From assembly GCF_020099395.1 (NCBI RefSeq), contig NZ_CP083590.1, positions 6,758,001 through 6,822,000 of the forward strand: 64,000 bases of DNA. Reading direction: 5' to 3'. The notes beneath the pieces are model-generated. The model was not told where the DNA came from and did no database searches. It saw nothing but the letters and a program-made list of their open reading frames with translations. Of this stretch, positions 4,812 through 22,559 are shown one piece after another (position 1 is the first letter of the stretch; every line of letters starts with the position of its first letter). This DNA is from Streptomyces mobaraensis. Lineage in GTDB: Bacteria; Actinomycetota; Actinomycetes; Streptomycetales; Streptomycetaceae. The position numbers were made by a program, and so were the translations under genes.

Positions 4812-6191
4812 GTGGCCAGGATCAGGATGTCCGACCGGGTCTTTCTCGCGTTGGAGTCCGCCACCACTCCCCAGCATGTGGCGCTCCTGGCCACCTTCGG
4901 ACTGCCCGCCGGTGCCGAGCCCGGGCGGTACACGCAGCGCCTGTTCCAGCGGATCAACGATGCTCCCGTCGCGGCTCCCTTCACCTTCCGGTCACGCCAT
5001 GCGCGGCGGTGGGCCTTTGACGGCACCTGGGAGGAACTCGCTCCGGAGAACGTCGACCGGACGTATCACCTGCGTCGCTCCGCGCTTCCCGCGCCCGGGG
5101 GCGAGCGCGAGCTGACGGACCTCGTCTCACGGTTGCACTCCCGCCCGCTCGACCCCACGCGCCCTCTATGGGAGTGCTATGTGATCGAGGGCTTGGCGAA
5201 CCACCGATTCGCCCTGTACTTCAAGGTGCATCACGCGCTCATGGACGGGCTCGGAGTCCAACAGCGCCTACGGAGAATGCTCAGCACCGATCCACAGGAC
5301 GAGGAGCCGCACCCGCTGTGGAGCGGCGGGGGTCCCGTCGACGGCACCGCTGGGGCCAGCGGAACGACAGTACGGCGACTGGCGGTCAGCGCGCTAGGGA
5401 TTGGCAAAGCCGCCGGCACCATGGTGCGAGGCGCCCGCGACATGACTGACCATGCCCGGGCGGTGCCGTTCATGATCCCACGCTCTCCGCTGAACGCCGC
5501 TGTCGGGCGACAGCGCCTGGTGATCACCCGGAGCTACGACCTCGACCGGTTCCGGATGATGGCGAAGGCTGCCGACGCGACGATCAACGATGTCTTGCTG
5601 TCCGTGTGCGGTGGCGCCCTCCGGCGGTGCCTGGCGGCGGCTCGGGCGCTTCCGGTTCGTTCCCTGACCGCAGGGACACCTGTCTCGACGAGGGCGGCGG
5701 GCGACACGACCACCGCCAACTCCTTCGCCATGACGGTCATGAGCCTCGGCACCGATGTCGAGGACCCGCTGGAACGGCTCCGAACCGTGGCTCGGTCCAG
5801 CGCCCTCGCCAAGCGAGAGCTCGGCGAGTTGGCGAGGGGCGCCACCGGGCTCTACGGAGCCCTGTTCACCTGGCCGTTCGTCGCGCAGAACGCGCTGGGC
5901 CTGGCAGGCGCGACACGCCCCCCGTACAACATCGTGGTGTCGAACATCACCGGCTCCCCGCAGCCGATGTACTTCGCCGGATGCCGACTCGAGTCGATCT
6001 ACCCCCTGGGCAGTGTCTGCCATGGAGTCGGCCTGTTCATCGCGGCCCACTCTCTATGCGGGCGGTTGAACCTGTGCCTCGTGGGAGATCGCGCCCTGCT
6101 CGCCCCACTAGAGGGTCTGCAGCGTCAGCTGAGTGAGGAGGTCGACCGCCTGGAGCAGGCGGTAGGTACGCCCGTCGGGTCAGCGCAGTAG
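4812..6191 (+). CDS. Wax ester synthase / diacylglycerol acyltransferase (WS/DGAT) family protein
   Basis: 459 residues from the GTG at 4812, which follows GGAGAGG at a normal distance and places the family N-terminal pattern (MSDRVFLALES...) at the start; a longer frame opening at 4737 lacks a ribosome site. The catalytic motif HHxxxDG appears as VHHALMDG (His140-Gly146). The C-terminal PPYNIVVSNITG block is the conserved second region of bacterial WS/DGAT proteins. Known relatives esterify acyl-CoA with long-chain alcohols or diacylglycerol at the membrane-lipid droplet interface. Its 3' end overlaps the convergent NUDIX gene by 12 bases. It may be storage-lipid metabolism or an acyl-transfer step of the adjoining biosynthetic set; the sequence does not decide. 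Confidence 0.85.
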   Translation: MARIRMSDRVFLALESATTPQHVALLATFGLPAGAEPGRYTQRLFQRINDAPVAAPFTFRSRHARRWAFDGTWEELAPENVDRTYHLRRSALPAPGGERELTDLVSRLHSRPLDPTRPLWECYVIEGLANHRFALYFKVHHALMDGLGVQQRLRRMLSTDPQDEEPHPLWSGGGPVDGTAGASGTTVRRLAVSALGIGKAAGTMVRGARDMTDHARAVPFMIPRSPLNAAVGRQRLVITRSYDLDRFRMMAKAADATINDVLLSVCGGALRRCLAAARALPVRSLTAGTPVSTRAAGDTTTANSFAMTVMSLGTDVEDPLERLRTVARSSALAKRELGELARGATGLYGALFTWPFVAQNALGLAGATRPPYNIVVSNITGSPQPMYFAGCRLESIYPLGSVCHGVGLFIAAHSLCGRLNLCLVGDRALLAPLEGLQRQLSEEVDRLEQAVGTPVGSAQ

Positions 6192-6581
6192 TCCGTCGGC
6201 CAGCAGGCGGTCAAAAATGATCTGGTCTACGGGGGACGTACGGTGCTTGTCGCCGTGGGTGAGCCACACCATCTCGGCGATCTCGCTGGCCGGAGCGAGC
6301 ACTCCCTCGTACGCGGCGGTATAGCACGTCATGCGTACGGCCACGCCCGGCAGGTGCCCGTGTGCCTGGGCTTCGAAGACCCCCAGGAGGGCCGCCGAGT
6401 TCCGCACGACGGCGACGGAGAGTTCCTCCCTGATCTCCCGGCACAGCGTGTCGAGGTCACTCTCTCCCTGTTCCCGTTTTCCTCCGGGCAGGTAGTACGC
6501 GTCTTTGCCGTGGGAGCGCGTGCTCAGCACCATGCCGTTCTCGGTGTGCACCCATGCCACTTTGTCGATGACCGCTGTCAT
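6180..6581 (-). CDS. NUDIX hydrolase
   Basis: 133 residues from the ATG at 6581, preceded by AGGAGG eight bases upstream; an upstream in-frame start at 6629 lacks such a site. The NUDIX box fits G-x5-E-x7-R-E-x2-x-E-E as GGKREQGES...REIREELSV, with the usual glycine after EE replaced by serine. NUDIX enzymes cleave nucleoside diphosphates linked to another moiety. It is the last gene of the leftward operon that starts with the cupin. That position suggests house-cleaning or a dephosphorylation step on a pathway nucleotide, which is inference. Confidence 0.85.
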   Translation of the reverse strand: MTAVIDKVAWVHTENGMVLSTRSHGKDAYYLPGGKREQGESDLDTLCREIREELSVAVVRNSAALLGVFEAQAHGHLPGVAVRMTCYTAAYEGVLAPASEIAEMVWLTHGDKHRTSPVDQIIFDRLLADGLLR

Positions 6582-6635
6582 GCGCCAGTCCTCCTGTACT
6601 CGGCCGGTCCAGGAGAATACCGCCTTCATCCTCCC

Positions 6636-7241
6636 TCAGCCGTCGCACAGTTCCTTCATATACGTGGTGATGACCTGCCGCACGGCGTAGGTCAGGTCGG
6701 CGGACAGGGCTTCGCGTGACGTCAGCCAACGGGGTGCCTCACCTTCCTCGTTGACGGTGATACCGCCCCTGTCCGGCGCCGTCAGCAGGTACACGTGCCA
6801 GACATGTGCGTCCGAGCCGCGTCGGCAGGAGTCCCCGGGGATCGGAAGCCTGGCGACGAACCGGAGTCCGCCACCGGCGATCAGGCCGACTTCCTCCCGC
6901 AGTTCGCGGGCCGCGGCGTGGGCAGGGTCCTCGCCCCGCGCCACATGGCCGGCCGGGACCGTCAACGCGTAGGGGAAGGACGTTCGTTGGAAAAGCAAGA
7001 ACCTGTCCGACGCGTCGCGCACGAAGACCGCCGCGGTCTCGTGCCAGTACTCGCCGTCGTCGGCGGACCACCAGGAGATATCGGGATCGATGACGATGGC
7101 CCGGGCACTTCGCTCACCACAGTCGGCACAGCGGACCTCTCTCCTGCCTCCGACCGTGATCCATTCGACGGGGCCGCCTCGGCACAGCACGCAGTACTCC
7201 GCGTAGGTGTCCGGCTCCGGTCTCAGCGTCTCGATGTTCAT
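6636..7241 (-). CDS. NUDIX hydrolase with N-terminal zinc ribbon
   Basis: 201 residues. The N-terminus has two CxxC knuckles, CVLC (residues 17-20) and CADC (38-41), forming a probable zinc ribbon as in NudC-like and some ADP-ribose pyrophosphatase proteins. The NUDIX box follows as GHVARGEDP...RELREEVGL. Relatives hydrolyse NADH, ADP-ribose or other nucleotide conjugates. It lies 54 bases upstream of the second NUDIX gene and 38 bases after the HAD gene in the same direction, so all three are likely co-transcribed. Two adjacent, clearly different NUDIX proteins in one operon suggest two phosphorylated intermediates. Confidence 0.85.
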   Translation of the reverse strand: MNIETLRPEPDTYAEYCVLCRGGPVEWITVGGRREVRCADCGERSARAIVIDPDISWWSADDGEYWHETAAVFVRDASDRFLLFQRTSFPYALTVPAGHVARGEDPAHAAARELREEVGLIAGGGLRFVARLPIPGDSCRRGSDAHVWHVYLLTAPDRGGITVNEEGEAPRWLTSREALSADLTYAVRQVITTYMKELCDG

Positions 7242-7279
7242 GTGCTCTTTCTCGACAATGGATGAATTGCCCTGCCCGA

Positions 7280-7948
7280 TCAGGGCAGCAGGGTCGGAAG
7301 CTGCCGTATGTCGTCGAGGATGTGCTCGGCGCCGGCTCGCGCGAAGGTCTCCCGGGTACAGAAGCCGGTGGAGACCCCGACGAAGCGCAGCTTGGCCCCT
7401 GTGGCCGCCGTGTGGTCGATCAGAGCGTCACCCACGTACCAGATGTCGTCGACGCCGACTCCCCTTTCGCCGAGCGTCGCCAGCACGGAGTCGAACACTC
7501 GGGGGTCCGGCTTGTGGAACCGACTGTCATCCGCTCCCTGCAACAGGGTGAGCCGGTCTGTCCGCAGCCCGATCCGCTCGATGTCCCGGAGCGCCGAGGA
7601 CCGATTCGTGGACGTGACGACACCGACTTCGATGCCCCTCCGCCACAGCTCGTGAATGACGTCGACGGCACCGGGGAGGGGTTGTTTGAGGAAGTCCTCC
7701 TCCAGAGAGAGGTTCGCCTCACGCATCCTTTCCAGGGTGTCGCTGTCACGGTAAAGGGCACGGATCATCGCGTCGAACGGCCGGCCCCAGTGCAGCCGCA
7801 ACTCGGCGTCCGTCAGCTCGATATCGTAGAACCGCCGGGCGACCGCCTTGTGATGGGCCCATTTGACCTTCGCGGTCACGACCAGGGTGTCGTCCAGGTC
7901 GAAGAGGACCACACGGGGCTCGCGGATGGTGGGCGTCGCGCGCGTCAT
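7280..7948 (-). CDS. HAD-superfamily phosphatase (phosphoglycolate phosphatase-like)
   Basis: 222 residues. HAD motif I is FDLDDTLV near the N-terminus, with nucleophile and acid-base aspartates both present. Motif II is VTSTN. Motif III Lys is in FHKPDPRVF, and motif IV is WYVGDALIDHTAA. A helical cap sits between motifs I and II, as in phosphoglycolate/beta-phosphoglucomutase-type enzymes. The start overlaps the MFS stop by four bases (ATGA), so translation is coupled to the exporter. It probably removes a phosphate from a small pathway metabolite in the cytosol; substrate unknown. Confidence 0.88.
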   Translation of the reverse strand: MTRATPTIREPRVVLFDLDDTLVVTAKVKWAHHKAVARRFYDIELTDAELRLHWGRPFDAMIRALYRDSDTLERMREANLSLEEDFLKQPLPGAVDVIHELWRRGIEVGVVTSTNRSSALRDIERIGLRTDRLTLLQGADDSRFHKPDPRVFDSVLATLGERGVGVDDIWYVGDALIDHTAATGAKLRFVGVSTGFCTRETFARAGAEHILDDIRQLPTLLP

Positions 7949-9243
7949 GACGTGAGGTCCCCTCCGCTGGTCCGCCCTTGAGGTACAGTCGCTCGGCTGG
8001 AGGCTGGATTCGCCTCCTCATAGCGCCTTTGAAGCCGGGCGGAATCGCGCACAGCGGGCAACGACAGCGCAAGTAGCAGGGCGGCGCCGACTGCTGTGAA
8101 GGCGAGCGCGGCCAGGCCGGCGCCGAGCCACCCGGCGAGGTCCACGGCCAGGCTGAAAGCAGGCGGCCCGACCAGTGTGCCGAGGCTGCCGAACTGGGCC
8201 ACCAAGCCATTGGTGATATCGGCCCGCCGGCGGGCGCCGGCGATGCGCGGCACCGAGGCGAACATTACGGAGATCATCACCCCGTTGGACACCATACCGA
8301 CGCAGGCCAGGACCATGACGGCCACCAGGGGGAGGTGCGACGCGAAGACCAGTAGCGCCGAGACAGGGAGCACCACCAGCACCGGTGCGATCGCGAGCAG
8401 CCCGATTCCCCGGCGCAGCAGCAACCCGCTCAGCGCGCTGCCGAGCACGCTGCCGAGGGAGACGACGGCGGCGACGCTGCCGGCGGCGGCGGTGGAGGCG
8501 CCGCGTTCCTCCGTCAGGAAGGTGGGCAGCAAGACAACGATGGCGACACCGGCCAGGCAGACGCACGCGAAGCTCAGCGCGAAGAAGACCGGGGGGACCC
8601 AGGTGGTGAGGGGGGACGGCCCTCCCGGGGCGTCGTCGGCCGTCGTCGGCGCGCGGGTGGCGACAGGACGCAGGGCACGAACCGCGACCGCCAGTGCGAG
8701 CGGGACGAGCGCGGTCCCGCCGATCCAGCCGCGCCAGCCGACCACCCCGCTGACTGCCCCTCCCAGCGCGGTGGCCAGGGCGAGTCCGGTGGGGACGCAT
8801 GTTCCCCACAACGCCAGAGCGGTGGCCTGGACCCGCCCTTCGGCCAACCGCGTCAGCATGATGGGCCCCCCTACGAAAACCAAGAGGTACCCGAGGCCCT
8901 GCGCGGTGCGTGCCCCCAGCAGCAGCGGCCAGTTCGCCGTGAAGGCCGTCGCGACCACGGACAGTGCGGTGAGGGCGAGACCGCCGGCCACGGCCTTTCG
9001 GGCGTCGAGTCGGCTGATCCACCAACCGGCGGGGACCCCGAGTACGGCGCTCACCGCGGTGATGCTGGAGGTCGCCCAAGTGAACTGGCCAAGGGAGAGG
9101 TTCATGTCCTGTCGGATCTCGGACCCGAGCGGGGAGAGGGCACCCAGCCCGAAGGCGGCGACGACCCCTGAAAGCCAGGTGATCATGACAGTCGGCCACG
9201 GGGAACCGTCGCTTTCGCGGGACGCAACGGTGTTCTCGCGCAT
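7945..9243 (-). CDS. MFS transporter (probable exporter or nucleoside/cyanate-type permease)
   Basis: 432 residues with about twelve hydrophobic segments and a central hydrophilic loop (APTTADDAPGGPSP) between the two six-helix halves. The RLDARK loop after helix 2 is the MFS signature position. The protein most resembles CynX/NimT-like and general drug/metabolite MFS carriers. Its place inside the leftward operon, coupled to the HAD gene, makes it the likely exporter of the cluster product. The start is the ATG at 9243, preceded by GGGAGAGAG. Direction and substrate of transport are inferred. Confidence 0.82.
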   Translation of the reverse strand: MRENTVASRESDGSPWPTVMITWLSGVVAAFGLGALSPLGSEIRQDMNLSLGQFTWATSSITAVSAVLGVPAGWWISRLDARKAVAGGLALTALSVVATAFTANWPLLLGARTAQGLGYLLVFVGGPIMLTRLAEGRVQATALALWGTCVPTGLALATALGGAVSGVVGWRGWIGGTALVPLALAVAVRALRPVATRAPTTADDAPGGPSPLTTWVPPVFFALSFACVCLAGVAIVVLLPTFLTEERGASTAAAGSVAAVVSLGSVLGSALSGLLLRRGIGLLAIAPVLVVLPVSALLVFASHLPLVAVMVLACVGMVSNGVMISVMFASVPRIAGARRRADITNGLVAQFGSLGTLVGPPAFSLAVDLAGWLGAGLAALAFTAVGAALLLALSLPAVRDSARLQRRYEEANPASSRATVPQGRTSGGDLTS

Positions 9244-9350: not shown

Positions 9351-9884
9351 TCAGCGCTGCTGACCGTACGCCGTCAACAGCTCGGTGTCACCGGTCACAT
9401 ACGTCGTGTCGGTGATGACGGTCTGGTCGGACGGACCGCGGCTGCACATGCACATGTGCCGTCCGCTCGACTCCACACGCACGGCACGTGCCCCGCCCGA
9501 GGACATGATCTCCTCGGCTATGTCCTTCACCAGGTGCTCCTGGATCTGGAACCGCTTGCTGAATGCCTGTACCAGGCGCGGGAACTTGCCCAGCCCCAGG
9601 ATCCGGTCTCCGGGGACGTAGGTGATGTCGACCTTGCCGTAGAAGGGCAGGAAATGGTGTGCGCAGATCGAGTAGTAGTTGATGTCGCGTACCCGGACGA
9701 CGCCCTGGTGGTCACCCTTGACCAGGACGGTCGTCTTGAGGATCTTTGATGTATCGACCTCGTAGCCGCTCAGCAACTCCTTGTAGGCGCGTACGATGCG
9801 AGGCTCGCACTCGGGTTCTGTGTACCAGTCCAGAGCCCGCTTGTCCGTGGTGACGTTTTCCTGGAGCCACTCGGCGATCGTCAT
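9351..9884 (-). CDS. GTP cyclohydrolase I-like enzyme with altered active-site motifs
   Basis: 177 residues from the ATG at 9884 (GGAGAA upstream), standard FolE core length. Zinc ligands are kept: Cys74 and His77 in ICAHHFLPF, and Cys145 in RHMCMCSRG, with His143. The guanine-anchoring Gln-Glu pair is present in RFQIQEHL. Two usually invariant patches differ: CEHH is CAHH and GLSK is GLGK. GTP cyclohydrolase I turns GTP into dihydroneopterin triphosphate, the entry to folate, pterin and 7-deazapurine pathways. No queuosine-type partners (QueD, QueE, QueC) are in the window. The gene follows a phosphoribosyltransferase-like gene in the same operon, so a specialised paralogue is more likely than the housekeeping folE. 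Confidence 0.85.
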   Translation of the reverse strand: MTIAEWLQENVTTDKRALDWYTEPECEPRIVRAYKELLSGYEVDTSKILKTTVLVKGDHQGVVRVRDINYYSICAHHFLPFYGKVDITYVPGDRILGLGKFPRLVQAFSKRFQIQEHLVKDIAEEIMSSGGARAVRVESSGRHMCMCSRGPSDQTVITDTTYVTGDTELLTAYGQQR

Positions 9885-9996: not shown

Positions 9997-11091
9997 TCAG
10001 CGCGGCGGTTCTCCGTTTCCCAGGCGTGCGGCGGCGTAAGCTCCGATGGGCGTCGTCTCCGCGTACTCGCGTGCTTGTCGTCCCAGCGCATGGAGGTCGG
10101 CGTGGTCGACGCCGAGGTGCCGCACGTTCTCCGGCGCCGCCCAGGCGATCTCCCCCAGCCAGTCGTCGAAGGGCCGGGCGTACTGATCGAGACCGGCGGT
10201 GGTCCGTCCCAGGTCGAGCAGGGAGAGCCCGGCGTCGGACCCCCGCCGTTGAATCTCCGTCCACCACTCCGTCCGGAACAGCCGGTGCTCACCGGGCGTA
10301 TAGGCGCGCACGCCTCCGTCGTAGATGGCGCACTTCTCAAAGAGACTGTCCCGGCGACCCAGACGGTGTAGTTCGAAATCCGGAGACGACCGCTGGGGAG
10401 ACCTCAGGAAGTCGAAGGGCAGCTGAGGGAATGCCTGCCCGAGGCCGGTGCGGTCGGGCAGCTCGAAGAGTGCCTCAAGGGCCACGACGGCCGCACTGAA
10501 TCGGTCACCCCGCGCGGACAGTTCGGCGAAGAAGTTCCGTAGACGGGTCACGCCTTGCCGGGACCCGACGGTCAGCACCAGGTAGCCGCTGATCTCCTCC
10601 CCGCGGTCGCGCGCCGTATCCCGTGCCACTCGGAGTACCTTCTCCACCGTCGCCCCGGTGCCGATGATGTCCCCGAGCACCAACAGCGGTCGCTCCGCGA
10701 ATTCCCAGCGCTCGTACGAGATGTCGAGCGGGCGACAGGCACCTCTGTCGGTACCGACGAAGCTCACCGCCGCGGGAGAGCCGAAGCGGTGCGACAGCGC
10801 GTTCTCGACTCCGAAACTGAGCCCGCCGCGCAGGATGTTGACGACCGTCGCCGCATCGGATGCCAGGGCTTCGGCCACCGTCGGATCGGTCTCCGCGACC
10901 AGGTCGAGCGCGGTCGAGACCGCGGTGCCGAGCAGCGAACGGTACCGGTGGCCTGATACGGCCGGGTCGGTGAGCAGGTCACGCGACGCTGCGGTCGAAC
11001 AGACGAAGACCCGAGTCGGGGAGGCGGCGGAATCCAAGCAGTAGCATGCCGCGTCGTTGCTGCGCAGGAGATATTTCACCGGGTGCTCCAT
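9997..11091 (-). CDS. Phosphoribosyltransferase-like protein 1 (uracil-PRTase-like fold)
   Basis: 364 residues from the ATG at 11091. A 13-residue PRPP-binding motif is visible as VLGDIIGTGATV (residues 138-149), and VVNILRGGLSFG (83-94) resembles the ILRAGL loop of uracil phosphoribosyltransferases. That covers the first ~200 residues. The remaining ~160 have no family I recognise and include WWTEIQRRGSD. Known PRTases join PRPP to a base or other acceptor with loss of pyrophosphate. It sits 18 bases after the ThDP beta subunit and before the cyclohydrolase-like gene. It could instead use the fold only for regulation, but the intact motif favours catalysis. Confidence 0.72.
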   Translation of the reverse strand: MEHPVKYLLRSNDAACYCLDSAASPTRVFVCSTAASRDLLTDPAVSGHRYRSLLGTAVSTALDLVAETDPTVAEALASDAATVVNILRGGLSFGVENALSHRFGSPAAVSFVGTDRGACRPLDISYERWEFAERPLLVLGDIIGTGATVEKVLRVARDTARDRGEEISGYLVLTVGSRQGVTRLRNFFAELSARGDRFSAAVVALEALFELPDRTGLGQAFPQLPFDFLRSPQRSSPDFELHRLGRRDSLFEKCAIYDGGVRAYTPGEHRLFRTEWWTEIQRRGSDAGLSLLDLGRTTAGLDQYARPFDDWLGEIAWAAPENVRHLGVDHADLHALGRQAREYAETTPIGAYAAARLGNGEPPR

Positions 11092-11109: not shown

Positions 11110-11694
11110 TCACGGTTTGAGTGCAGGGCGCCTAGGCGTTCCACCGGTACGTTCGGCCAGCACTCTCTCCACCTGGTACGAAGACTCGACTCCGTCGATT
11201 GTTTTCAGCGCGTCCGGTGCGGGTGCCGGATTGTGGACCGCAGCGATGAGGACCGTGCCGGGAAGTGGCAGCACATCCGGTATCCGGTGCGGAGTTTCGA
11301 TGAGGATCGACTTCAGTCCGACGGCGCCGAAGAGTGAACCCCAGTCCAGCGCCGCCTTACGGCTGGGCAAACCACCACCGGACTCGTACAGGCGGTTGTC
11401 GACAATAGCCAGAGTGTAGTTGGGAAGACGCGGCAATTGGTCGCCCAATGCCATGAGAACGGACAGATTCATCAGAAAGCTGCCGTCCGTATCGATGCCG
11501 ACCACGGACAGTGGAGCCGCCGCCATGGCCATTCCCAGGGAAATGGCGGTGACATCGCCCATGGTGTCGGTGAAGAGGGTGTCGGCGGGGCGAAGCGCAT
11601 ACATCACCTCGCTTGTCCGGCCGAGTGGTGCGACCGACACCGAGTCCGTGGGGAGCCTGTCGTACAGGGCTTCGAGGAATTCTGCGGTGTCTAT
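11110..11694 (-). CDS. ThDP-dependent decarboxylase, beta (cofactor-binding) subunit, apparent ATA start
   Basis: About 194 residues. It matches the C-terminal, pyrophosphate-binding half of phosphonopyruvate/sulfopyruvate decarboxylases: APLGRTSEVMYAL, the ThDP motif beginning GIDTDGSFLMNL and ending in VDNRLYESGG. The alpha-subunit stop sits in GCGTAATAGAC, so the expected TAATG overlap reads TAATA. A strong GAGGAG lies six bases before this ATA. The only conventional start in frame is a GTG at 11790, which would add ~32 poorly conserved residues and overlap the alpha gene by 97 bases. With its partner it should decarboxylate a 2-oxo acid carrying a negative group, such as phosphonopyruvate or sulfopyruvate; no PEP mutase gene is nearby. 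Confidence 0.75.
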   Translation of the reverse strand: MDTAEFLEALYDRLPTDSVSVAPLGRTSEVMYALRPADTLFTDTMGDVTAISLGMAMAAAPLSVVGIDTDGSFLMNLSVLMALGDQLPRLPNYTLAIVDNRLYESGGGLPSRKAALDWGSLFGAVGLKSILIETPHRIPDVLPLPGTVLIAAVHNPAPAPDALKTIDGVESSYQVERVLAERTGGTPRRPALKP

Positions 11695-12209: not shown

Positions 12210-12515
12210 TTATTTGCCAGTGGCCAGTAGCTCTACGATGATGTTCGAGTAGTGAGTGTCCCCGATATTCCGCAGAAGATGTGGCTGCCCCGCTTCGTGG
12301 TAGACGGCGTCGCCTACTTTATCGTCTCCGACGTAACTGGTGCCGTCGTGATTCACCGTCTCCGCCCGGCCGCTTTCCGTGACGACGTAGACGTAATCGC
12401 AGGGATGCTGGTGGACAATCGTCTGCTCTCCTGCCTCCAACTCCAGGACCCACACCCTGACGCGATCATCGGAGTAAACCAGTTTTGTGCCGACCTGCTC
12501 GATGTGCTCATGCAT
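12210..12515 (-). CDS. Small cupin-domain protein
   Basis: 101 residues from the ATG at 12515; longer in-frame starts extend into the intergenic region without a ribosome site. It is a single cupin barrel: motif 1 as [16 protein letters not shown] with metal-type histidines, and motif 2 around [16 protein letters not shown]. Small cupins bind a metal and act as isomerases, dioxygenases or ligand sensors. It is the first gene of the leftward operon, so either an early pathway step or a regulatory/stabilising role would suit. No substrate can be assigned. Confidence 0.78.
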
Positions 12516-15303: not shown

Positions 15304-16142
15304 CAGGGCGCGACCACGAGCCGTTCGCCGTGGTGTTCCTCGACGTCAACGGCACTTTGGTGCCCTCCGAGCCAGGCGTTCCTCCGGAAGCCTTCTCCCT
15401 GCGGTGCTTCCGAGGTCTCGTGCGACGACTGACGTCGCTGGGCGTCGCCGTCGGCCTGTGCTCGGACTCGCCACTCGAACAGCTCTGGGAGTTCGGTGTG
15501 CGTATCGGCCTGGGCACGGCACCCGAGTTCCCGGTGATCGCCGAGAACGGCAACGTGGTCGCGGTCGGCGGAGCGGTGCGTGTCATCACCCCATTCCCGG
15601 CATTGCCGGACCTTCGCGCTGAAGTGACAAGAACGGCCGTCGCCCACGGGCTGGCCCGAGTCGGCGATGTGGCGGCACCCGAGTTCGGGGGCCGGCCACC
15701 GTTCGGCCGTGAGTGGGCCTTCGGGGCGAACCGCCGGGCGTCCGCCAGCGTCTTCGGCGCCCCCGATTTCATCCGCGACGTGCGGCAGCGCGTGACCGAG
15801 TGGTGTGCCGAGAACCACTGCGATATCTCGGTCGGCGTCGGTCCGGATGGCTCATATGCCGGAATTCACCCCTATGCGCGTGTGGAGCTGGGCAAACGCG
15901 TGGCGCTGGCCGAACTGGCCGCGCGCGACCCGATGGAGAGAACTCTCATGGTGGGGAATTCGCTCGCCGACTGGGTCCCCGGGGTACCTGGCGTCGGATG
16001 CGCATTCGTGGCGGACACCGCTGTGCCCCAGTACGTGCGGGACGCGGCCTGGTACGTCTCCCCGAAGAGCGACCTGGAGGGGGTCATCGACGTCCTGTGG
16101 CACGTGGTGCGACGCCAACCGCCGGTACGAGGATCAGTCTGA
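15300..16142 (+). CDS. HAD-superfamily protein with Asp-Val-Asn-Gly-Thr motif I
   Basis: 280 residues from the ATG at 15300, which overlaps the previous TGA. Motif I is FLDVNGTLV: the nucleophile Asp15 is kept, but the usual acid-base aspartate two residues on is Asn17. Motif II is LCSDSP, a lysine is available in ELGKRVALAELA, and motif IV is LMVGNSLADWVPG. The arrangement with a large cap after motif II resembles Cof/sucrose-phosphatase (type IIB) members. Replacing the second aspartate usually weakens phosphatase turnover and appears in HAD enzymes with other chemistries, so function is left open. It lies inside the rightward operon, ten bases before the oxidoreductase. Confidence 0.75.
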   Translation: MTGRDHEPFAVVFLDVNGTLVPSEPGVPPEAFSLRCFRGLVRRLTSLGVAVGLCSDSPLEQLWEFGVRIGLGTAPEFPVIAENGNVVAVGGAVRVITPFPALPDLRAEVTRTAVAHGLARVGDVAAPEFGGRPPFGREWAFGANRRASASVFGAPDFIRDVRQRVTEWCAENHCDISVGVGPDGSYAGIHPYARVELGKRVALAELAARDPMERTLMVGNSLADWVPGVPGVGCAFVADTAVPQYVRDAAWYVSPKSDLEGVIDVLWHVVRRQPPVRGSV

Positions 16143-16152
16143 GGAGGACGAC

Positions 16153-17253
16153 ATGTTCCGTGTCCGTGTGGGGGTAGTGGGCTGCGGGATGATCGCGCAG
16201 CTGGTGCACCTCCCTTACCTGAGGGCATTGGTCGACCGCTTCGACATCGTGGCGCTCTGCGACCGCTCATTCGACCTGGCACAGTCGGTGGCCGAACACT
16301 TCCGGGTCCCGAACGTCTACGCCGCCGTCGAGGACATGCTGGCGAAGACACCCGGGTTGGATGCCGTCGTCGTCCTCACGCCCGACCACAGGGATCCGGT
16401 GCTTGCCGCGCTGGAGCGTGGCAAGCACGTGTTCACCGAGAAACCCCTCGGTCACACCATCGCGGAAATCGAGGAAGTGATCGCCGCGGCCCACCGTACG
16501 GGGTCCAAGGTCATGGTGGGCTACATGAAGCGGTACGACAGCGGTGTCCGCCGCGGCCTCGAAGAAATCGCGCGGATCGTGCGACCCACCATGGCGAGAA
16601 TCCACATCGTGGTAGGACCCGAGTACGGAAACTGGATCATCCCCGAACTCACCCGGATCAAGCGCGCCGATGGCTCTTCCCCCACGGGACGACAGGATGA
16701 GCGACGCCGCCGGGTCGACCTGGAGTTCGGCAGCACCTCGTCCGGAGCACTGGAAGCCTATATGGACATGTTCGGGGTGTGGAGTCATGACGTGAACGTC
16801 TATCGAGCTGCTTACCCCGCCATGCCCGACTCCATAAAGGCGCACTGCTCGCCGGACGGCAAGACGCTCACCGCCTCACTCCGGTACGCCGACGGGTTTC
16901 AGTGCGTCTTCCAGGGTTCGTCCACCTCGATCCACCGGTTCGAGGAGAGTCTCACCGTATGGGGCTCGGACCGTACGGTGACGCTGGACATCTCCAACCC
17001 TTTCCTGCCCAACGCACCGTCGACCGTGCGGATCTGGCGGGACGAGCCGGCAGCGGACACGGGTGCTGGGAGGGGAGCGGCTCTGGAAGAGGTCATCACG
17101 GGGTCCTACGAGGAGGCGTTCAGAGCACAGCTCGCGCATTTCCACGACTGCGTCACCTCGCCGGGACTGCATCCCCTCACCAGCGCGCACGAAGCGCTGA
17201 TGGACACGCGCTTGATGATCGACATCGTGCGGGCAGCAGATGAACGGCCGTAG
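16153..17253 (+). CDS. Gfo/Idh/MocA family NAD(P)-dependent oxidoreductase
   Basis: 366 residues from the ATG at 16153, after GAGGAGG. The Rossmann motif is VGVVGCGMIAQ (residues 6-16) and the catalytic EKP triad is FTEKPLGHT (Lys97), followed by an alpha/beta C-terminal domain. Family members oxidise or reduce sugars, inositols and nucleotide-sugar hydroxyls. In this cluster the likely substrate is a ribose- or sugar-derived intermediate made by the phosphoribosyltransferase-like enzymes. It is followed after 35 bases by the MbtH-A-T gene. Confidence 0.87.
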   Translation: MFRVRVGVVGCGMIAQLVHLPYLRALVDRFDIVALCDRSFDLAQSVAEHFRVPNVYAAVEDMLAKTPGLDAVVVLTPDHRDPVLAALERGKHVFTEKPLGHTIAEIEEVIAAAHRTGSKVMVGYMKRYDSGVRRGLEEIARIVRPTMARIHIVVGPEYGNWIIPELTRIKRADGSSPTGRQDERRRRVDLEFGSTSSGALEAYMDMFGVWSHDVNVYRAAYPAMPDSIKAHCSPDGKTLTASLRYADGFQCVFQGSSTSIHRFEESLTVWGSDRTVTLDISNPFLPNAPSTVRIWRDEPAADTGAGRGAALEEVITGSYEEAFRAQLAHFHDCVTSPGLHPLTSAHEALMDTRLMIDIVRAADERP

Positions 17254-17288
17254 CGCCGCATCCACCGTAGGTCAGGAGACGGGGAACT

Positions 17289-19295
17289 GTGAGCGATTCC
17301 ATGCATGATGCGGACGAGGCAAGGACCGTTCTCGTCAACGACGCAGGGCAGTACTCGTTATGGCCGGCCCGGCTCGGCCTCCCGCCGGGCTGGCGCGTCG
17401 CATACTCGGCCTCGACCCGCCGGGATTGCCTCGACTACGTGGCGGAACATTGGACGGACATCCGTCCTCGGGGGCCCCTGGGTGAAGCCGGGGCGCGCCT
17501 CCACCAGCTGTTCGCCGAGCAGGTGGCGCGCACACCGGAAGCGCCGGCTCTGATCTGGCAGGATCAGTGCATCTCCTATCGCAAGCTGCACAGGAGATCC
17601 CAGCGGCTCACCCGGTTTCTGTCGCGACGCGGGATCGGGGCAGGGGCTCACATCGGGGTCTGTGTGGAACGGTCCCCAAGAATGATCGCCGCCCTGTTCG
17701 CCATTATGCAGGCTGGAGCCGCCTACGTCCCGCTCGACCCTGAGTATCCTGTCGAGCGATTGCAGTACATGCTCGAGCACAGCGGGGCGGAAGTCCTGCT
17801 GACGCAGAGGAGCCTCGGTCCCCTCTTCCCCTCATACCAGGGTGAGATCGTCGATCTCGACGAAGTCCAGGCACACATCGACACCTTACCCGTCGAACCG
17901 ATGCCCTTCGCATCCGGAGCGGACACCGCCTACGTCATCTACAGCTCCGGTTCCACCGGAAGGCCGAAAGGCGTCCTGGTCGGGCACCGCTCGCTGGTGA
18001 ATCACAGTTTCGCGGTGAACCGTCATTTCCGGTTCGGGCCGGGTGACCGGGTGCTGCAGTGCAGGCCGATCAGTTTTGACGCCGCTGCTGAGGAAATCTT
18101 CCCGCCTCTCCTGCACGGCGCCGCCCTCGTGCTCGGCAGCGACCCGCTTCGGCAGACCTTTCGCGCTCTCACCCAGCAAGTGATCGATACCGGGACGACC
18201 TTTATGAGTGTCCCCACCGCCTTCTGGCACAGCTGGGTACGGGAGGAGGACTGCTTGATCCGACTGGCATCAGAATCCTCACTCCGCCTGGTGATCGTGG
18301 CAGGGGAGAAGGTGACGCGCCAGGCTCTGCTGACCTGGAAGAAGCGGATTGGCGAGCGGATCCGCTGGTGCAACGTCTATGGGCCGACCGAGGCGACCAT
18401 CACATCGACCGTCTTCGAACCGGGGGCCGACTGGAACTCGGACCGGTCCTCCTCCGTTCCCATCGGGCATCCCATCGAGAACGTGCGGTGCCATGTGCTC
18501 GACGACGATATGACTCCCGTGCCGACGGGCGTGGTGGGGGAGTTGTACCTGGGAGGGGAAGGCGTTGCCATCGGGTACCTCGACGCACCGGGAATGACGG
18601 CGGAAAGCTTTGTGGCCGATCCGTTCTCGGCAGCGCGGGGAAAACGTTTGTACCGCACCGGGGACCTGGCGCGGACGGGCGCTGACGGCCTTATCGAGTT
18701 CGTCGGCCGCCGCGATCACCAGGTGAAAATCCGCGGATACCGGATCGAGTTGGGCGAGATCGAGGCGGTGGCCGGCGAACACCCTGCCGTCCGGCAATGC
18801 GTCGTCGTGCTGGACGACAGTACCCCGGACAACCCCTCGCTAAGCCTTCATGCGGTCGTGAACCAGCACGCCGGCCTGTCCGACCAGGAGTTGCTCGGCT
18901 TTCTTCGCCGAAAACTACCGTGGTATATGATTCCCGCAGGGGTTCGCTTCCTTGCGGAAATGCCGGTGACGCCCAGTGGGAAGATCGACCGCGGCGCCCT
19001 CATGTCTCGGGAGGCCGGCGCCGAAACCGACGTCGCGTACATCGCTCCGCGTACGCCGGCCGAGACGGCGCTGACAGCCATCTGGGAAGAGCTTCTCGGT
19101 CAGCGGAAGATCAGTGTGGACGCCGACTTCTTTCAACTGGGGGGCCACTCTCTGATTGCCGCTGGTCTGATTTCCCGGATTCGCGCGCAGTTGAACGTCA
19201 GCGTTCCGGTCCGTGTGCTCTTCGAGCACCCGACCATCGCGAGTCTCGCCGTCGCGGTCACACGGTGGGCCGAGGAAGGAGCGGGTGATTCATGA
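17289..19295 (+). CDS. Stand-alone NRPS loading protein: MbtH-like domain fused to adenylation and carrier domains
   Basis: 668 residues. Residues ~12-62 are an MbtH-like domain (VLVNDAGQYSLWP, CLDYVAEHWTDIRP). Residues ~75-570 are an adenylation domain with A3 YSSGSTGRPKG, A5 NVYGPTEATI and A7 RTGDLAR. Residues ~585-660 are a carrier domain with the phosphopantetheine serine in GGHSLIAA (Ser621). By hand alignment the binding-pocket residues read D-A-E-A-I-A-V-I-T, which I cannot assign to an amino acid. There is no condensation or thioesterase domain. The same MbtH-A-T architecture is found in NikP1 of nikkomycin biosynthesis, where the bound amino acid is beta-hydroxylated by a P450. The adjacent P450 gene fits this. 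Confidence 0.88.
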   Translation: MSDSMHDADEARTVLVNDAGQYSLWPARLGLPPGWRVAYSASTRRDCLDYVAEHWTDIRPRGPLGEAGARLHQLFAEQVARTPEAPALIWQDQCISYRKLHRRSQRLTRFLSRRGIGAGAHIGVCVERSPRMIAALFAIMQAGAAYVPLDPEYPVERLQYMLEHSGAEVLLTQRSLGPLFPSYQGEIVDLDEVQAHIDTLPVEPMPFASGADTAYVIYSSGSTGRPKGVLVGHRSLVNHSFAVNRHFRFGPGDRVLQCRPISFDAAAEEIFPPLLHGAALVLGSDPLRQTFRALTQQVIDTGTTFMSVPTAFWHSWVREEDCLIRLASESSLRLVIVAGEKVTRQALLTWKKRIGERIRWCNVYGPTEATITSTVFEPGADWNSDRSSSVPIGHPIENVRCHVLDDDMTPVPTGVVGELYLGGEGVAIGYLDAPGMTAESFVADPFSAARGKRLYRTGDLARTGADGLIEFVGRRDHQVKIRGYRIELGEIEAVAGEHPAVRQCVVVLDDSTPDNPSLSLHAVVNQHAGLSDQELLGFLRRKLPWYMIPAGVRFLAEMPVTPSGKIDRGALMSREAGAETDVAYIAPRTPAETALTAIWEELLGQRKISVDADFFQLGGHSLIAAGLISRIRAQLNVSVPVRVLFEHPTIASLAVAVTRWAEEGAGDS

Positions 19296-19385: not shown

Positions 19386-20585
19386 ATGAACGTCGATCTG
19401 TCGGATCCACTTCTGTACCAGGAATCGGACCCGGAGCCGGTGTGGGCGCGACTGCGCGCCGAGCACCCGGTGTACCGGAACGAGCGACCGAACGGTGAGT
19501 ACTTCTGGGCCGTGATGACGCATCGCCTCTGCACGGACATGCTCACGGATCCCCAAGTGTTCAGCTCCGAGAACGGCATGAGGCTGGACTCCAATCCGAA
19601 AGTGCTGGCTGCGGCGGCGGGAAAGATGCTCAATGTCACCGACCCGCCGCGGCACGACAAGATCCGGAAGGTCATCAGTTCGGCGTTCACGCCCAAAATG
19701 GTCGACCGGCTCGAAGCCAACATGCGGAAGACGGCCGCGAAGGCCATTGAGAACGCGATGGCCGAGGAGCGGTGCGAATTCACTCGAGTCGCACAGAAGC
19801 TACCGGTTTCGGTGATCTGCGACATGATGGGGGTCCCCGAGGCCGACTGGGACTTCATGGTCGAACGTACCCGTTTCGCCTGGAGCTCCACCGCACTCGA
19901 CGAAACGGACGAGGCCGGAAAGGTACAGGCCCACACCGAGATTCTCTGCTACTTCCAGGAGTTGGCCGAGGAGCGGAGGAAGCGTCCGCAGGACGATCTC
20001 ATGAGTGCCTTGGTGTGCGGTGAGATCGACGGATCTCCCCTGACCGAGCAAGAGATCTTCTACAACTGCGATGCCCTGATATCCGGCGGGAACGAGACGA
20101 CACGGCACGCCATCGTGGGCGGGTTGCTGGCCTTTGTCGGCAATCCGGACCAGTGGCGCATGCTCCGGGAGGATCCCGGCCTGATGCCCTCCGCGATCCA
20201 GGAGATCATCCGGTACACCTCCCCCGTCATGCATGCTCTCCGCACCGCCAGGAGGGACGTGGACCTGGGTGGTCAGCCGATTCGTGCGGGTGATCATGTC
20301 GTGGCGTGGCTGCCGTCGGCCAATCGCGACGAGGAGGTCTTCACCGACCCGGAACGCTTCGACATCCTGCGCTCCCCGAACCGTCACCTGGGTTTCATCG
20401 TGGGAAACCACTACTGCATCGGTTCTGCGCTCGCCAAGCTCGAACTGACCGTCATGTTCGACGAACTCACGCGGCGGGTCCGGACGGCTGAGATCACCGG
20501 CCCGGTCCGCCGACTGCGCTCGAATCTCCTATGGGGGTTCGATTCGCTCCCGCTGACGTTCCTCCCGAATCGAGGCAGCCGATGA
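19386..20585 (+). CDS. Cytochrome P450, probable hydroxylase of the carrier-bound amino acid
   Basis: 399 residues. The heme loop is FIVGNHYCIG (proximal Cys344), the I-helix motif is ISGGNETTRH, and the K-helix ExxR is in QEIIRYTSP. An asparagine before the ET pair is common in P450s that beta-hydroxylate aminoacyl-carrier proteins, such as NikQ- and NovI-type enzymes. It lies 90 bases after the MbtH-A-T gene, so a carrier-bound amino acid is its likely substrate. No ferredoxin or reductase gene adjoins it; electrons would come from elsewhere. ATGA couples it to the third PRTase-like gene. Confidence 0.9.
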   Translation: MNVDLSDPLLYQESDPEPVWARLRAEHPVYRNERPNGEYFWAVMTHRLCTDMLTDPQVFSSENGMRLDSNPKVLAAAAGKMLNVTDPPRHDKIRKVISSAFTPKMVDRLEANMRKTAAKAIENAMAEERCEFTRVAQKLPVSVICDMMGVPEADWDFMVERTRFAWSSTALDETDEAGKVQAHTEILCYFQELAEERRKRPQDDLMSALVCGEIDGSPLTEQEIFYNCDALISGGNETTRHAIVGGLLAFVGNPDQWRMLREDPGLMPSAIQEIIRYTSPVMHALRTARRDVDLGGQPIRAGDHVVAWLPSANRDEEVFTDPERFDILRSPNRHLGFIVGNHYCIGSALAKLELTVMFDELTRRVRTAEITGPVRRLRSNLLWGFDSLPLTFLPNRGSR

Positions 20586-21391
20586 AAAGCGCCCGCAGAG
20601 TGCTACGAGACGCTATCTCCCCTGACACTCGGCGTACTGTGGAGAAGTACGAACGGGAGTACGGTGCTTGCTTCAGTCATCTGCTGCATTTCGACTCACA
20701 CACGCTGAAGTCCCTGCACGCGCCGGGCGAGTTGCCGAGCAGCGTGCGTGTGGCCTCTGACGAGCACCCTGCCGTGATCGATCGGATGGCCGTTGTGACG
20801 GAGATCGCCAACCTTCCCGAGCGGCAAGAGGCGGACCGCCGCAATTATCTCCGTGCCCTGCTCGATATCTACGACATGTTGCCCACGCAGGTGAGGGATG
20901 CCGCCTCCGTACCAGGAGCAGTCGTCATCGCACCGGAGCGCGAGGGGCGGATCCTGGCCGAACTGCTTGGCGTGCTGACCCACCACCAAGGGTGGACACC
21001 ACAGGCCAAGCGCATGCCCACGGCCGGCGGTCTGGTCGTCGGAGTCGACCGCCGGCTCCCCGCTCGATGCGACCGGCTGGTGATCGTCGATGGCGTCGTG
21101 GCCAGCGGGGCGACCCTGATGGCGATGATGCATCTGGCCACCCGGCCGGGCGCTGTGGTGGACGTTTTCACCTGCCACGCGACTGCGGAGGGAGCACTCG
21201 CGCTGTCACGATACGCAGAACAGTGGGGCGTTTCGTTGACAGTCCACGTCGGCCACGTGTCGGGAATTCTCAATGAGAAGTTCTACTCGGTGGAACCGGG
21301 CGATCAGTCAACCCTGGTCCTGGGCGACATCGGCGACACCATCAGCCCGATCGCTTCGGGGACCAAGGGGGTGGGCCATGACGAGCGCTGA
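20582..21391 (+). CDS. Phosphoribosyltransferase-like protein 3
   Basis: 269 residues from the ATG at 20582, overlapping the P450 stop by four bases. The PRPP loop is LVIVDGVVASGATL (residues 166-179), close to the VDPMLATGGT of uracil PRTases. An upstream VVIAPEREGRILAELLG supplies the other conserved strand-loop, and the C-terminal HVGHVSGIL...GDIGDTI resembles the end of uracil PRTases. The N-terminal ~100 residues are unassigned. It is the third protein of this fold in 12 kb. It may attach ribose 5-phosphate to the base-like portion of the product or act on a different acceptor. Confidence 0.7.
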   Translation: MKSARRVLRDAISPDTRRTVEKYEREYGACFSHLLHFDSHTLKSLHAPGELPSSVRVASDEHPAVIDRMAVVTEIANLPERQEADRRNYLRALLDIYDMLPTQVRDAASVPGAVVIAPEREGRILAELLGVLTHHQGWTPQAKRMPTAGGLVVGVDRRLPARCDRLVIVDGVVASGATLMAMMHLATRPGAVVDVFTCHATAEGALALSRYAEQWGVSLTVHVGHVSGILNEKFYSVEPGDQSTLVLGDIGDTISPIASGTKGVGHDER

Positions 21392-21535
21392 CGAGACCTT
21401 GCCCGCCCGGGGGCCCATCAGCCCAGTGCGACGCCAGCCAGGCAGTGCCGCCAGATCGAATTCGTCACCGAGGCCGATCGACTCGCCGGTGATGTCCGGC
21501 AAAGCCTCCTCCTGACCGCGCAGTGCAAGGAGAAC
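21378..21535 (+). pseudogene. Apparent remnant of an HD-domain (YfbR-like) nucleotide phosphohydrolase
   Basis: From the ATG at 21378 the frame reads MTSADETLPARGPISPV; one frame over, from about 21450, it reads RQIEFVTEADRLAGDVRQ and then SLLL...CKENDA. The combination resembles the N-terminus of HD-type 5'-nucleotidases (R-Q-x-E-F-x-x-E-x-D-R-L, then R/K-E-N-D-A-E-H-S). Similarity stops exactly at KENDA, where the metal-binding EHS should follow, and the alcohol dehydrogenase begins at 21543. This looks like a 5' gene fragment with a frameshift and a downstream deletion. The match is by eye and short, so confidence is limited. Confidence 0.45.
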
Positions 21536-21542
21536 GACGCCT

Positions 21543-22559
21543 ATGCGAGCCACGCTCATCCATGCCTCCGGCGACGTCCGGCTGGAGAGGCTTCCCGATC
21601 CGAAAATCCTCAAGCGAACCGACGCGGTGATCCGCACCGTCGCCACGTGCGTGTGTGGAACCGACCTGTGGGCGTACCGCGGCGTCAGTGCCGTCGACGA
21701 GCCGCGCTTGATCGGCCACGAATACGTCGGCATCGTCGAGGAAACCGGCAGTGAGGTCAGCAGCGTCAAGCCCGGCCAGTTCGTCATCGGATCGTTCTTC
21801 GCTTCTGACAACACCTGCCCTCACTGCCGGGCGGGGTACCAGTCGTCCTGCCTCGATCGCGAGTTCATCAGCGGCTGTCAGGCGGAGTACGTCCGTGTCC
21901 CGCTGGCCGATGGCACCCTGGTGGCGCTCGACGGACAGCCGGACGAAGAACATATCCCCAGCTTGCTCACCCTCTCCGATGTCATGGGCACCGGCTGGTA
22001 CGCAGCGGTGGCCGCTCGGATCAAGCCCGGCGACACCGTCGCCGTTGTGGGTGATGGTGCGGTAGGCCAGTCGGCTGTGATCGCCGCCGGAGAGCTTGGT
22101 GCCGAGCGGATCATCATCATGAGCCGTCATGCCTCCCGTCAGAGGCTGGCTCTCGCATTCGGCGCCACCGATGTGGTGGCCGATCGCGGAGACATGGGCG
22201 TGGCACAAATCAAGGGACTCACCGGGGGCGTTGGTGCCGACGCGGTGCTCGAGTGTGTCGGCACAGCCGAGTCGATGCGGCAGGCCATTCGTTCCACTCG
22301 CCCCGGCGGGAACGCCGCATTCGTCGGTGTTCCGCACGGTGTGCAGATCGACGGCAGGGAATTGTTCGACTCACACGTTGCCCTGCGCGGGGGCCCGGCC
22401 CCAGTACGCCGCTTCTTGCCTCACCTGATCGAGCGGGTCCTCGACGGCCGCATCAACCCGGGCAAGGTGTTCGACCTCGTCCTCCCCCTCGACCAGGTCG
22501 CCGAGGGCTATCAGGCCATGGATGAACGGCGCGCTGTCAAGGCATTACTGCTCCCCTGA
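21543..22559 (+). CDS. Zinc-dependent alcohol dehydrogenase (MDR family)
   Basis: 338 residues. The catalytic-zinc cysteine lies in ATCVCGTDLW, with GHEYVGIVEE following. The structural-zinc loop has three cysteines (TCPHC...SSC), the first of the usual four being aspartate. The NAD(P) motif is VAVVGDGAVGQ. It probably oxidises a primary or secondary hydroxyl of a cluster intermediate, or reduces an aldehyde made by the ThDP decarboxylase. GGAG at about 21528 serves as ribosome site. It is the last gene of the rightward operon and of the lower-GC block. Confidence 0.88.
   Translation: MRATLIHASGDVRLERLPDPKILKRTDAVIRTVATCVCGTDLWAYRGVSAVDEPRLIGHEYVGIVEETGSEVSSVKPGQFVIGSFFASDNTCPHCRAGYQSSCLDREFISGCQAEYVRVPLADGTLVALDGQPDEEHIPSLLTLSDVMGTGWYAAVAARIKPGDTVAVVGDGAVGQSAVIAAGELGAERIIIMSRHASRQRLALAFGATDVVADRGDMGVAQIKGLTGGVGADAVLECVGTAESMRQAIRSTRPGGNAAFVGVPHGVQIDGRELFDSHVALRGGPAPVRRFLPHLIERVLDGRINPGKVFDLVLPLDQVAEGYQAMDERRAVKALLLP

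Follow-up and report, generated by a model that had tools for sequence, protein, structure and literature searches.

The cytochrome P450 NikQ of nikkomycin biosynthesis hydroxylates the beta carbon of carrier-bound histidine, while in the ribostamycin pathway the pair BtrL/BtrP, a phosphoribosyltransferase (PRTase) and a HAD protein, carries out a ribosylation. For the related san genes, one published account describes SanO as an L-His-specific didomain nonribosomal peptide synthetase (NRPS), SanQ as a heme hydroxylase and SanR as a uracil phosphoribosyltransferase, and reports that disruption of sanP abolishes beta-hydroxyhistidine synthesis (PMC2787493). Here we analyze a gene cluster of Streptomyces mobaraensis that lies in a 64,000-nucleotide window (positions 6,758,001 to 6,822,000 of a 7.64-Mb contig; coordinates below are those of the window unless a locus is named). 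The cluster combines an MbtH-adenylation-thiolation (A-T) protein and a P450 with three PRTase-like proteins (PRT1 to PRT3), a pyridoxal phosphate (PLP) decarboxylase (DC), a two-subunit thiamine diphosphate (ThDP) enzyme and a GTP cyclohydrolase I (GCH-I). Our analysis points, with fair though not high confidence, to a horizontally acquired cluster of three blocks that makes a nucleoside-like specialised metabolite.

The cluster is conserved as a unit

Comparison with Streptomyces sp. CB02056 showed that all 17 genes from the WS/DGAT acyltransferase gene to PRT3 are present there in the same order and orientation, with protein identities between 72% (PRT2) and 94% (GCH-I) and 77% for WS/DGAT. 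Outside this block, the flanking genes called by our script gave a single matching pair (38.9%), located on opposite sides of the two clusters. Since 17/17 genes keep their order at this level of identity while the flanks differ, the cluster genes form one unit conserved beyond chance. The reading frames had no inner stops, and dN/dS ratios, computed with starts trimmed for some genes, ranged from 0.08 to 0.44 (0.11 for GCH-I). The preliminary description of this DNA, made from the sequence alone, had taken the genes for one functional cluster and named conserved synteny as separate housekeeping operons among the results that would refute it; the gene order in CB02056 supports the former and speaks strongly against the latter.

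The GC content is 65.8% between about 4.8 and 22.6 kb, compared to 74.7% for the initial 4 kb and 74.1% beyond 22.6 kb, and the cluster is probably foreign to this chromosome and acquired horizontally. Profile searches of the cluster proteins against Pfam and NCBIfam agreed with the gene list of the preliminary description, and all 17 genes named in it were recovered as open frames close to where it had placed them. Its left border at 6180 had to be moved, as the cluster begins at 4827 with the WS/DGAT gene, whose 3' end shares 12 bases with that of the last NUDIX gene. The two divergent operons it had proposed around a common control gap were confirmed: the gap is 419 bp when the DC start is taken as 12935, and overlaps occur at 5 of the 15 same-strand junctions, measuring 4 bases in four cases. 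Looser junctions were seen between MFS and GCH-I (107 bp) and between GCH-I and PRT1 (112 bp).

Some features varied among relatives. The alcohol dehydrogenase (ADH) gene was missing from the CB02056 locus, and the MbtH part was absent from the A-T protein of that strain (622 aa) and from two Kitasatospora relatives (P0053 and P0054, no PF03621). Candidate linkages, with contigs of the same size as the sole link, were seen for PRT1, PRT2 and A-T homologues in Kitasatospora sp. NPDC018619, for PRT1 and PRT2 homologues in Kitasatospora NPDC001261, and for PRT2 and A-T homologues on a 283-kb contig and, with identities of 40% and 56%, on a 17.5-kb contig.

A-T and P450 proteins of the nikkomycin type

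The A domain has the 10-residue specificity code DAESIAVITK, read in GrsA numbering. The code was identical in 15 of 28 aligned homologues (the window protein apart) and differed by one or two residues in 11, while the remaining 2 had DLFTAALTYK. Relatives of the A-T protein at E 1e-170 were found in only 4 of 392 genus genomes, including its own. Two A-T relatives lie in nikkomycin-type clusters, in Streptomyces sp. NBC_00461 (G547) and in genome G537, and are 63 to 64% identical to the window protein with the same code. The window P450 is 79 to 80% identical to the P450s of these clusters and 84% to that of Streptomyces eurocidicus, compared to 26 to 33% for five other P450s. Plasmid matches to the A-T protein numbered 2746 records, the best listed at 39 to 44%, and were regarded as generic NRPS matches.

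Pfam was run on the G547 cluster, and the G537 genes were assigned through 89 to 98% identity to it. After the A-T gene, G547 has genes for a thioesterase, the P450, a uracil phosphoribosyltransferase, an ATP-grasp protein, a peptidyl carrier protein (PCP)-aminotransferase and MutE. On the other side lie genes for an acetaldehyde dehydrogenase, HMGL aldolase, DegT aminotransferase, DAO oxidase, A domain and P450, and beyond these a 2-oxoglutarate (2OG) oxygenase, radical SAM protein, aminotransferase, phosphatase and second 2OG oxygenase; we presume that these genes correspond to the nik genes whose names we use for both clusters. A free-standing thioesterase gene adjoined the A-T gene in loci L022 and L024 (Pfam) and L027 (blastp).

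The preliminary description had expected a beta-hydroxylated amino acid. Because the A-T and P450 proteins match the NikP1/NikQ pair of nikkomycin-type clusters, this amino acid can be named, and very probably the A-T protein loads L-His and the P450 beta-hydroxylates it. Weighing against this assignment, the nearest solved P450 by score was a CYP125 ancestor.

A core module around PRT2

The genes for DC, PRT2, a Cof-like HAD protein (HADb) and a Gfo/Idh oxidoreductase, together with WS/DGAT, recur elsewhere as a module. Scanning genome contigs with a PRT2 alignment gave ten loci. Besides CB02056, six actinobacterial loci held the core, whole or in part, among different neighbours; in S. silvisoli, CB03234, S. 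catenulae and S. aureocirculatus it stood without the A-T/P450 block (block 1 below). The order DC-PRT2-HADb-Gfo/Idh was found in CB02056, S. silvisoli, CB03234, S. catenulae and S. aureocirculatus; S. ipomoeae had PRT2-HADb-Gfo/Idh with no DC detected, and the S. pathocidini contig ends past DC-PRT2. Gfo/Idh followed HADb in all six of L001 to L006, and L007 ends before the position of this gene. A WS/DGAT gene was part of the core locus in CB02056, S. silvisoli, CB03234 and S. aureocirculatus, adjoining the decarboxylase in S. silvisoli and CB03234 and Gfo/Idh in S. aureocirculatus. At 1e-20, PRT2 was found in 3 of 392 genus genomes, namely its own, CB03234 and S. pathocidini.

The neighbours of the core differed from locus to locus. 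In S. catenulae (L004:4571-21019) they were phosphomethylpyrimidine-kinase-like, thymidylate-synthase-like, carbamoyltransferase and nucleoside-deoxyribosyltransferase-like genes, with haem-oxygenase-like, enolase-like, TenA and amidohydrolase genes besides. An MFS homologue (51%) and an ADH homologue (49%) stood beside the core in S. aureocirculatus, and no heterocycle enzymes were recognised beside it in S. silvisoli and CB03234. In S. pathocidini, a nucleoside hydrolase gene and a questin-oxidase-like gene adjoined DC-PRT2, their products being 60 to 61% identical to those of genome G336 (see below). A nitric oxide (NO) synthase and a P450 gene lay upstream of the S. ipomoeae core; at L005:5121-7532 the P450 gene is directly followed by the bacterial NO synthase gene, with the PRT2 frame some 2.4 kb downstream, and we take this pair to be thaxtomin TxtE/TxtD-like.

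PRT2 and HADb appear to be coupled. PRT2 was fused to a Cof-like HAD domain with a DxN motif at L009:1019-2704 and L010:307-2139, in a Moranbacteria metagenome-assembled genome (MAG) and an unclassified bacterial MAG, where the HAD part is 23 to 24% identical to HADb (E 4e-16 and 5e-14). HAD phosphatases have a DxD motif I, which includes the usual acid/base aspartate. HADb and its relatives had DxN in 8 of 9 aligned sequences, the ninth (S. ipomoeae) being cut before the motif. HADb itself matched no Pfam family, and searching the PDB at E ≤ 1 gave nothing for it either. The nearest solved structure to DC was BtrK (176 bits, compared to 123 for the best diaminopimelate decarboxylase). Distant PRT2 relatives fused to a nucleotidyltransferase-like domain were also seen on Streptomyces and Variovorax plasmids (L033:9397-12900 and L034:4806-8885) next to nadE-like and 2OG-Fe(II) oxygenase genes; from their sequences, these plasmid genes look like a route to a NAD-like dinucleotide.

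Three PRTase-like proteins

Matches of PRT1 to PRT3 to the Pfam PRTase models were weak or absent, and "PRTase-like" is therefore a statement on motif and fold. A PRPP (phosphoribosyl pyrophosphate)-binding motif and, by structure model, a PRTase fold were found for PRT1 and, with a less firm fold, for PRT2. PRT3 gave weak profile matches (PF14681, TIGR01091) below the cut-offs. Sequence searches of the PDB gave no matches to PRT1 and 22 rows for PRT2, all armadillo-repeat chains, which we regarded as chance. Among 394 family genomes, PRT1 had 3 matches, its own, CB02056 and a weak one in G290 with no cluster gene around it; relatives at 40 to 46% occur in other Streptomyces and Micromonospora, and none was found in plasmids. 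A TerD-associated PRTase/HAD system, which we take to make a "nucleoside-like metabolite", was considered owing to the PRTase-plus-HAD pair and was rejected: PRT1 to PRT3 had no PRTase_1/2/3 or TRSP Pfam match at E 0.01, and a PRTase-CE match at E 0.084 was seen in L009 only.

PRT3 has its own set of companions. At 1e-8 it was found in 7 of 392 genus genomes: its own, S. eurocidicus (G629) and five with a GTP-cyclohydrolase-II-type set (G217, G229, G303, G336 and S. pathocidini, G401; loci L042 to L050). In S. eurocidicus (L022 and L023), genes for A-T, thioesterase, P450, a PRT3-HD fusion and ADH are linked, and the A-T protein is identical to S. eurocidicus protein P0059. Searching with the HD domain of this fusion revealed a remnant downstream of PRT3 in the window, 66% identical over 41 residues (E 2e-13 with a 240-bp target). 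Because this remnant sits between PRT3 and ADH, the window cluster seems to descend from a PRT3-HD-ADH-type arrangement. ADH had been counted as an operon member in the preliminary description; CB02056 lacks it, but in S. eurocidicus an ADH gene (76% identity) is linked to P450-PRT3, and we list it as a probable accessory member.

In G336, the genes around PRT3, MFS and HD encode WD40, GTP cyclohydrolase II, FGE-like, glycosyltransferase, nucleoside hydrolase and permease proteins (Pfam). G217, G229 and G303 were likened to G336 from gene size and order, Pfam having been run on G336 and on one G229 gene, which is RibD. The S. pathocidini set was assigned by blastp at 68 to 78% on a contig without the nucleoside hydrolase and permease; this contig, distinct from that of DC-PRT2, carries a WS/DGAT gene (51%) beside the set with PRT3 and HD. 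No A-T or P450 match at 1e-12 was found in the stretches read of these five genomes. The sets resemble toxoflavin-type (azapteridine) sets.

GCH-I, the ThDP pair and the cupin

GCH-I is identical to PDB entry 9ujf over all 177 residues in the alignment. The ThDP subunits matched entries 9u8q, 9u8r and 9u8s (six copies of each per entry) with 412.9 bits over residues 4 to 197 of the searched frame for beta and 357.7 bits over residues 1 to 168 for alpha; by these scores, about 2.1 bits per residue, the matches are at self-match level. Crystal structures that match GCH-I and the two ThDP subunits have thus been deposited, and judging from the sequences, this cluster or a nearly identical one is already under study elsewhere. 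Searches of the open-licence literature, outside which most subscription journals lie, found no relevant paper for 9UJF or 9U8Q/R/S and none on this cluster. The earlier statement that no characterised pathway has this gene set accordingly needs qualifying, as work on nikkomycin has characterised the A-T/P450 part, and as these structures have been deposited.

GCH-I belongs to a rare subfamily. Of 394 class genomes, 1 held it at 1e-35, namely its own, and it fell below all NCBIfam folE cut-offs (144/174, 141.8/162, 125.3/181.6 and 93.3/202 bits). Its identity is 40% with what is probably the housekeeping copy of the genome and 36% with a third copy, located about 255 kb from the cluster; at 40% identity, a role as a resistant target copy is unlikely. 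The zinc-binding Cys/His/Cys residues and the catalytic histidine of these enzymes are kept (motifs CAHHFLPF and HMCM). CEHH is changed to CAHH and GLSK to GLGK, unlike in both other copies of the genome, and GTP may therefore not be the substrate. The GCH-I-like gene about 255 kb away lies with 6-pyruvoyltetrahydropterin synthase (PTPS) matches, about 3.4 kb apart, at G000:C1:6504475-6508833.

Among the loci read, the block of cupin, ThDP alpha and beta, PRT1 and GCH-I was seen only in this cluster type, the ThDP and cupin genes being without a search of their own in other genomes. Among plasmids, ThDP alpha matched six Rhizobium-type records at 40 to 41%.

A proposed pathway and its alternatives

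If the cluster makes a nucleoside-like metabolite, block 1 (MbtH-A-T, P450, PRT3 and ADH) would follow nikkomycin base-forming logic: the T domain would be loaded with L-His, whose beta carbon the NikQ-type P450 would then hydroxylate, after which PRT3 may attach or exchange a 5-phosphoribosyl group on an imidazole-derived heterocycle. More speculatively, the threonine-dehydrogenase-like ADH may oxidise the beta-hydroxyl. In block 2, going by what is known of its family, PRT2 would move phosphoribose from PRPP and HADb would act on the phosphorylated product; Gfo/Idh would then oxidise the sugar, and DC and WS/DGAT could make and attach an aminoacyl or acyl tail. As the cluster has no thioesterase, WS/DGAT may, again speculatively, have a second role in releasing beta-hydroxyhistidine from the T domain. 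An additional building block may come from block 3, by 2-oxo-acid decarboxylation and cyclohydrolase-type ring opening. The MFS protein, by family, would export the product, and the NUDIX and HADa proteins may trim or detoxify nucleotide forms. The order of these steps, their later substrates and the product are our conjecture. The preliminary description had inferred a peptidyl-nucleoside-like or ribosylated metabolite; the nucleoside-type enzymes are supported, and the product may be peptidyl or ribosylated.

It is unlikely, though it deserves weight, that the product is instead a GTP-derived metabolite (pterin-, deazapurine- or azapteridine-like) in which beta-hydroxyhistidine is only a side chain. 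GCH-I would then open GTP, and the ThDP enzyme, PRTases and NUDIX/HAD proteins would process a pterin or pyrimidine nucleotide. This would fit GCH-I being the most conserved protein of the cluster, the presence of PRT3 and HD in five Streptomyces genomes with the GTP-cyclohydrolase-II-type set and, in S. pathocidini, the nucleoside hydrolase and questin-oxidase-like genes of that set next to DC-PRT2 and the WS/DGAT gene beside the rest of it. The cluster, however, contains no PTPS, radical SAM or RibD family (Pfam), the PTPS of this genome being encoded about 255 kb away, and the CAHH and GLGK changes argue against GTP as the substrate. We give less credence still to a ribosylated amino acid or peptide without a nucleobase, for which PRT2 and HADb, by analogy to BtrL/BtrP, would ribosylate an alcohol or amine. 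The relation of DC to BtrK of butirosin and the PRT2-HAD fusions of the two MAGs are in line with such chemistry, but the two further PRTases, GCH-I and the NUDIX genes point to nucleotides, and some PRT2 and PRT3 relatives accompany nucleoside enzymes. That two or three unrelated operons are neighbours by chance is hardly credible: despite the loose junctions on both sides of GCH-I and the occurrence of the right-hand core alone elsewhere, the gene order is kept in CB02056 between differing flanks, and the genes form a single low-GC island.

We also put forward, as a tentative idea that we hold to be possible rather than probable, that the core is a portable cassette for tailoring, so far undescribed, and that a family of nucleoside-like metabolites arises from its combination with interchangeable modules for base formation. 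The modules would be the His A-T/P450 pair with GCH-I in the window, the GTP-cyclohydrolase-II-type set in S. pathocidini and the thymidylate-synthase-like set in S. catenulae, and a PRTase coupled to a HAD protein without the usual acid/base aspartate would extend from Streptomyces to a Moranbacteria MAG. If true, the cassette would give leads to several nucleoside-like antibiotics not yet known. The core defined here can in any case be used to mine relatives in other actinobacteria, and it raises the question of what a PRTase does when coupled or fused to a DxN HAD. For the cluster itself, one likely precursor step (L-His to beta-hydroxyhistidine) can be named in an otherwise unread pathway, which makes isotope feeding and comparative liquid chromatography-mass spectrometry simple tests.

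Features of the cluster and its surroundings

The features are collected in Table 1. The threonine-dehydrogenase likeness of ADH corresponds to 113.5 bits with TIGR00692 (tdh; cut-off 458). To the right of the island, the window holds two adjacent AAA/LuxR-type regulator genes (27209-31509) and a TerD-domain gene (42434-43639). A PPDK_N/PEP-utiliser protein and a fold-I pyridoxal decarboxylase are also encoded outside the cluster (24713-26335 and 39782-41206).

Table 1. Positions, strands and supporting evidence for the features of the S. mobaraensis cluster
Feature	Position	Strand	Evidence
WS/DGAT-type (condensation-superfamily) acyltransferase	4827..6191	+	PF03007 E 4.9e-62, TIGR02946 365 bits; HHxxxDG by eye
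NUDIX hydrolase a	6180..6629	-	PF00293 7.7e-9; present in CB02056
NUDIX hydrolase b	6636..7241	-	PF00293 4.8e-18; present in CB02056
HAD hydrolase a (HADa, HAD_2)	7280..7948	-	PF13419 3.6e-24
MFS transporter, probable exporter	7945..9243	-	PF07690 6.3e-38
GTP cyclohydrolase I (GCH-I), rare subfamily	9351..9884	-	PF01227 1.4e-43
PRT1, uracil-PRTase-fold protein with extra C-terminal part	9997..11079	-	
ThDP decarboxylase-like beta subunit	11110..11694	-	TIGR03846 63.6 bits (cut-off 221.5)
ThDP decarboxylase-like alpha subunit	11694..12200	-	TIGR03845 62.1 bits (cut-off 147.95)
Small cupin	12210..12515	-	PF07883 4e-6, slightly below cut-off; 86% in CB02056
Divergent intergenic region, presumed control region	12516..12934	.	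419 bp, aligns with CB02056 gap
Fold-III PLP decarboxylase (DC), core module	12935..14200 (start possibly 12917)	+	PF02784 3.4e-34
PRT2, APRT/OPRT-like phosphoribosyltransferase, core module	14197..15303	+	
HADb, Cof-like HAD, motif I DxN not DxD, core module	15300..16142	+	
Gfo/Idh/MocA oxidoreductase, core module	16153..17253	+	PF01408 1.4e-25
MbtH-A-T loading protein, L-His predicted	17289..19295	+	PF03621, PF00501, PF00550
P450, NikQ-type, predicted beta-hydroxylation of carrier-bound His	19386..20585	+	Identity to nikkomycin-type P450s
PRT3, uracil-PRTase-like	20582..21391	+	PF14681 0.0057, TIGR01091 0.0013
Decayed HD (5'-nucleotidase-like) domain remnant	21419..21541	+	tblastn with S. 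eurocidicus HD domain
Zinc alcohol dehydrogenase (ADH), threonine-dehydrogenase-like, probable accessory member	21543..22559	+	PF00107/PF08240

Comparison with known systems

Two pathways suggested by single enzymes were rejected. Sulfopyruvate/phosphonopyruvate decarboxylases of the ComDE type have separate alpha and beta ThDP subunits whose models match the window pair, but the scores are far under the curated cut-offs, as is the best NCBIfam match of HADa, a phosphonatase-like model (56.8 bits, cut-off 218.9), and no phosphonate mutase family was recognised in the cluster (Pfam), which speaks against a phosphonate or sulfonate pathway. In 7-deazapurine clusters, GCH-I stands beside PTPS/QueD and QueE, whereas the window cluster has neither a PTPS nor a radical SAM family (Pfam). 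Among solved structures, BtrK of butirosin is the closest to DC, and the PRTase plus HAD logic of PRT2/HADb is similar to that of BtrL/BtrP of ribostamycin; the window cluster, however, lacks a free-standing carrier protein, no aminoglycoside genes were recognised in it (Pfam), and HADb is a DxN HAD. The sets that we take to be toxoflavin-like likewise have PRT3, HD, MFS and a GTP cyclohydrolase, but this is cyclohydrolase II instead of I and is accompanied by WD40, FGE and nucleoside hydrolase genes, with no A-T/P450 match and with PRT2-core genes nearby in S. pathocidini only.

The S. eurocidicus locus resembles the window cluster in block 1, with identities of 64% (A-T), 84% (P450), 71% (the PRT3 part) and 76% (ADH). 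Unlike the window cluster it has a thioesterase and an HD domain; its MFS, HAD and NUDIX genes gave no blastp match to those of the window at 1e-4, and the 34 kb read held no match to the core, GCH-I, PRT1 or ThDP genes (tblastn 1e-12).

Nikkomycin clusters share with the window an MbtH-A-T protein with the same specificity code, the highly similar P450 and a PRTase after the P450. PRT3 is nevertheless not NikR-like (29% over a fragment to the NikR-type protein of G547, E 0.29). The free-standing thioesterase (NikP2/SanP) next to A-T has no counterpart among the 18 window cluster proteins (Pfam), nor have the ATP-grasp, PCP-aminotransferase, MutE, radical SAM and 2OG-oxygenase proteins of the NikS-U and NikI-M type. 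Conversely, the window cluster has GCH-I, the ThDP pair, PRT1 and the core module in addition. The cluster is thus probably a hybrid, in which nikkomycin-type beta-hydroxyhistidine enzymes are joined to a barely studied ribosylation module.

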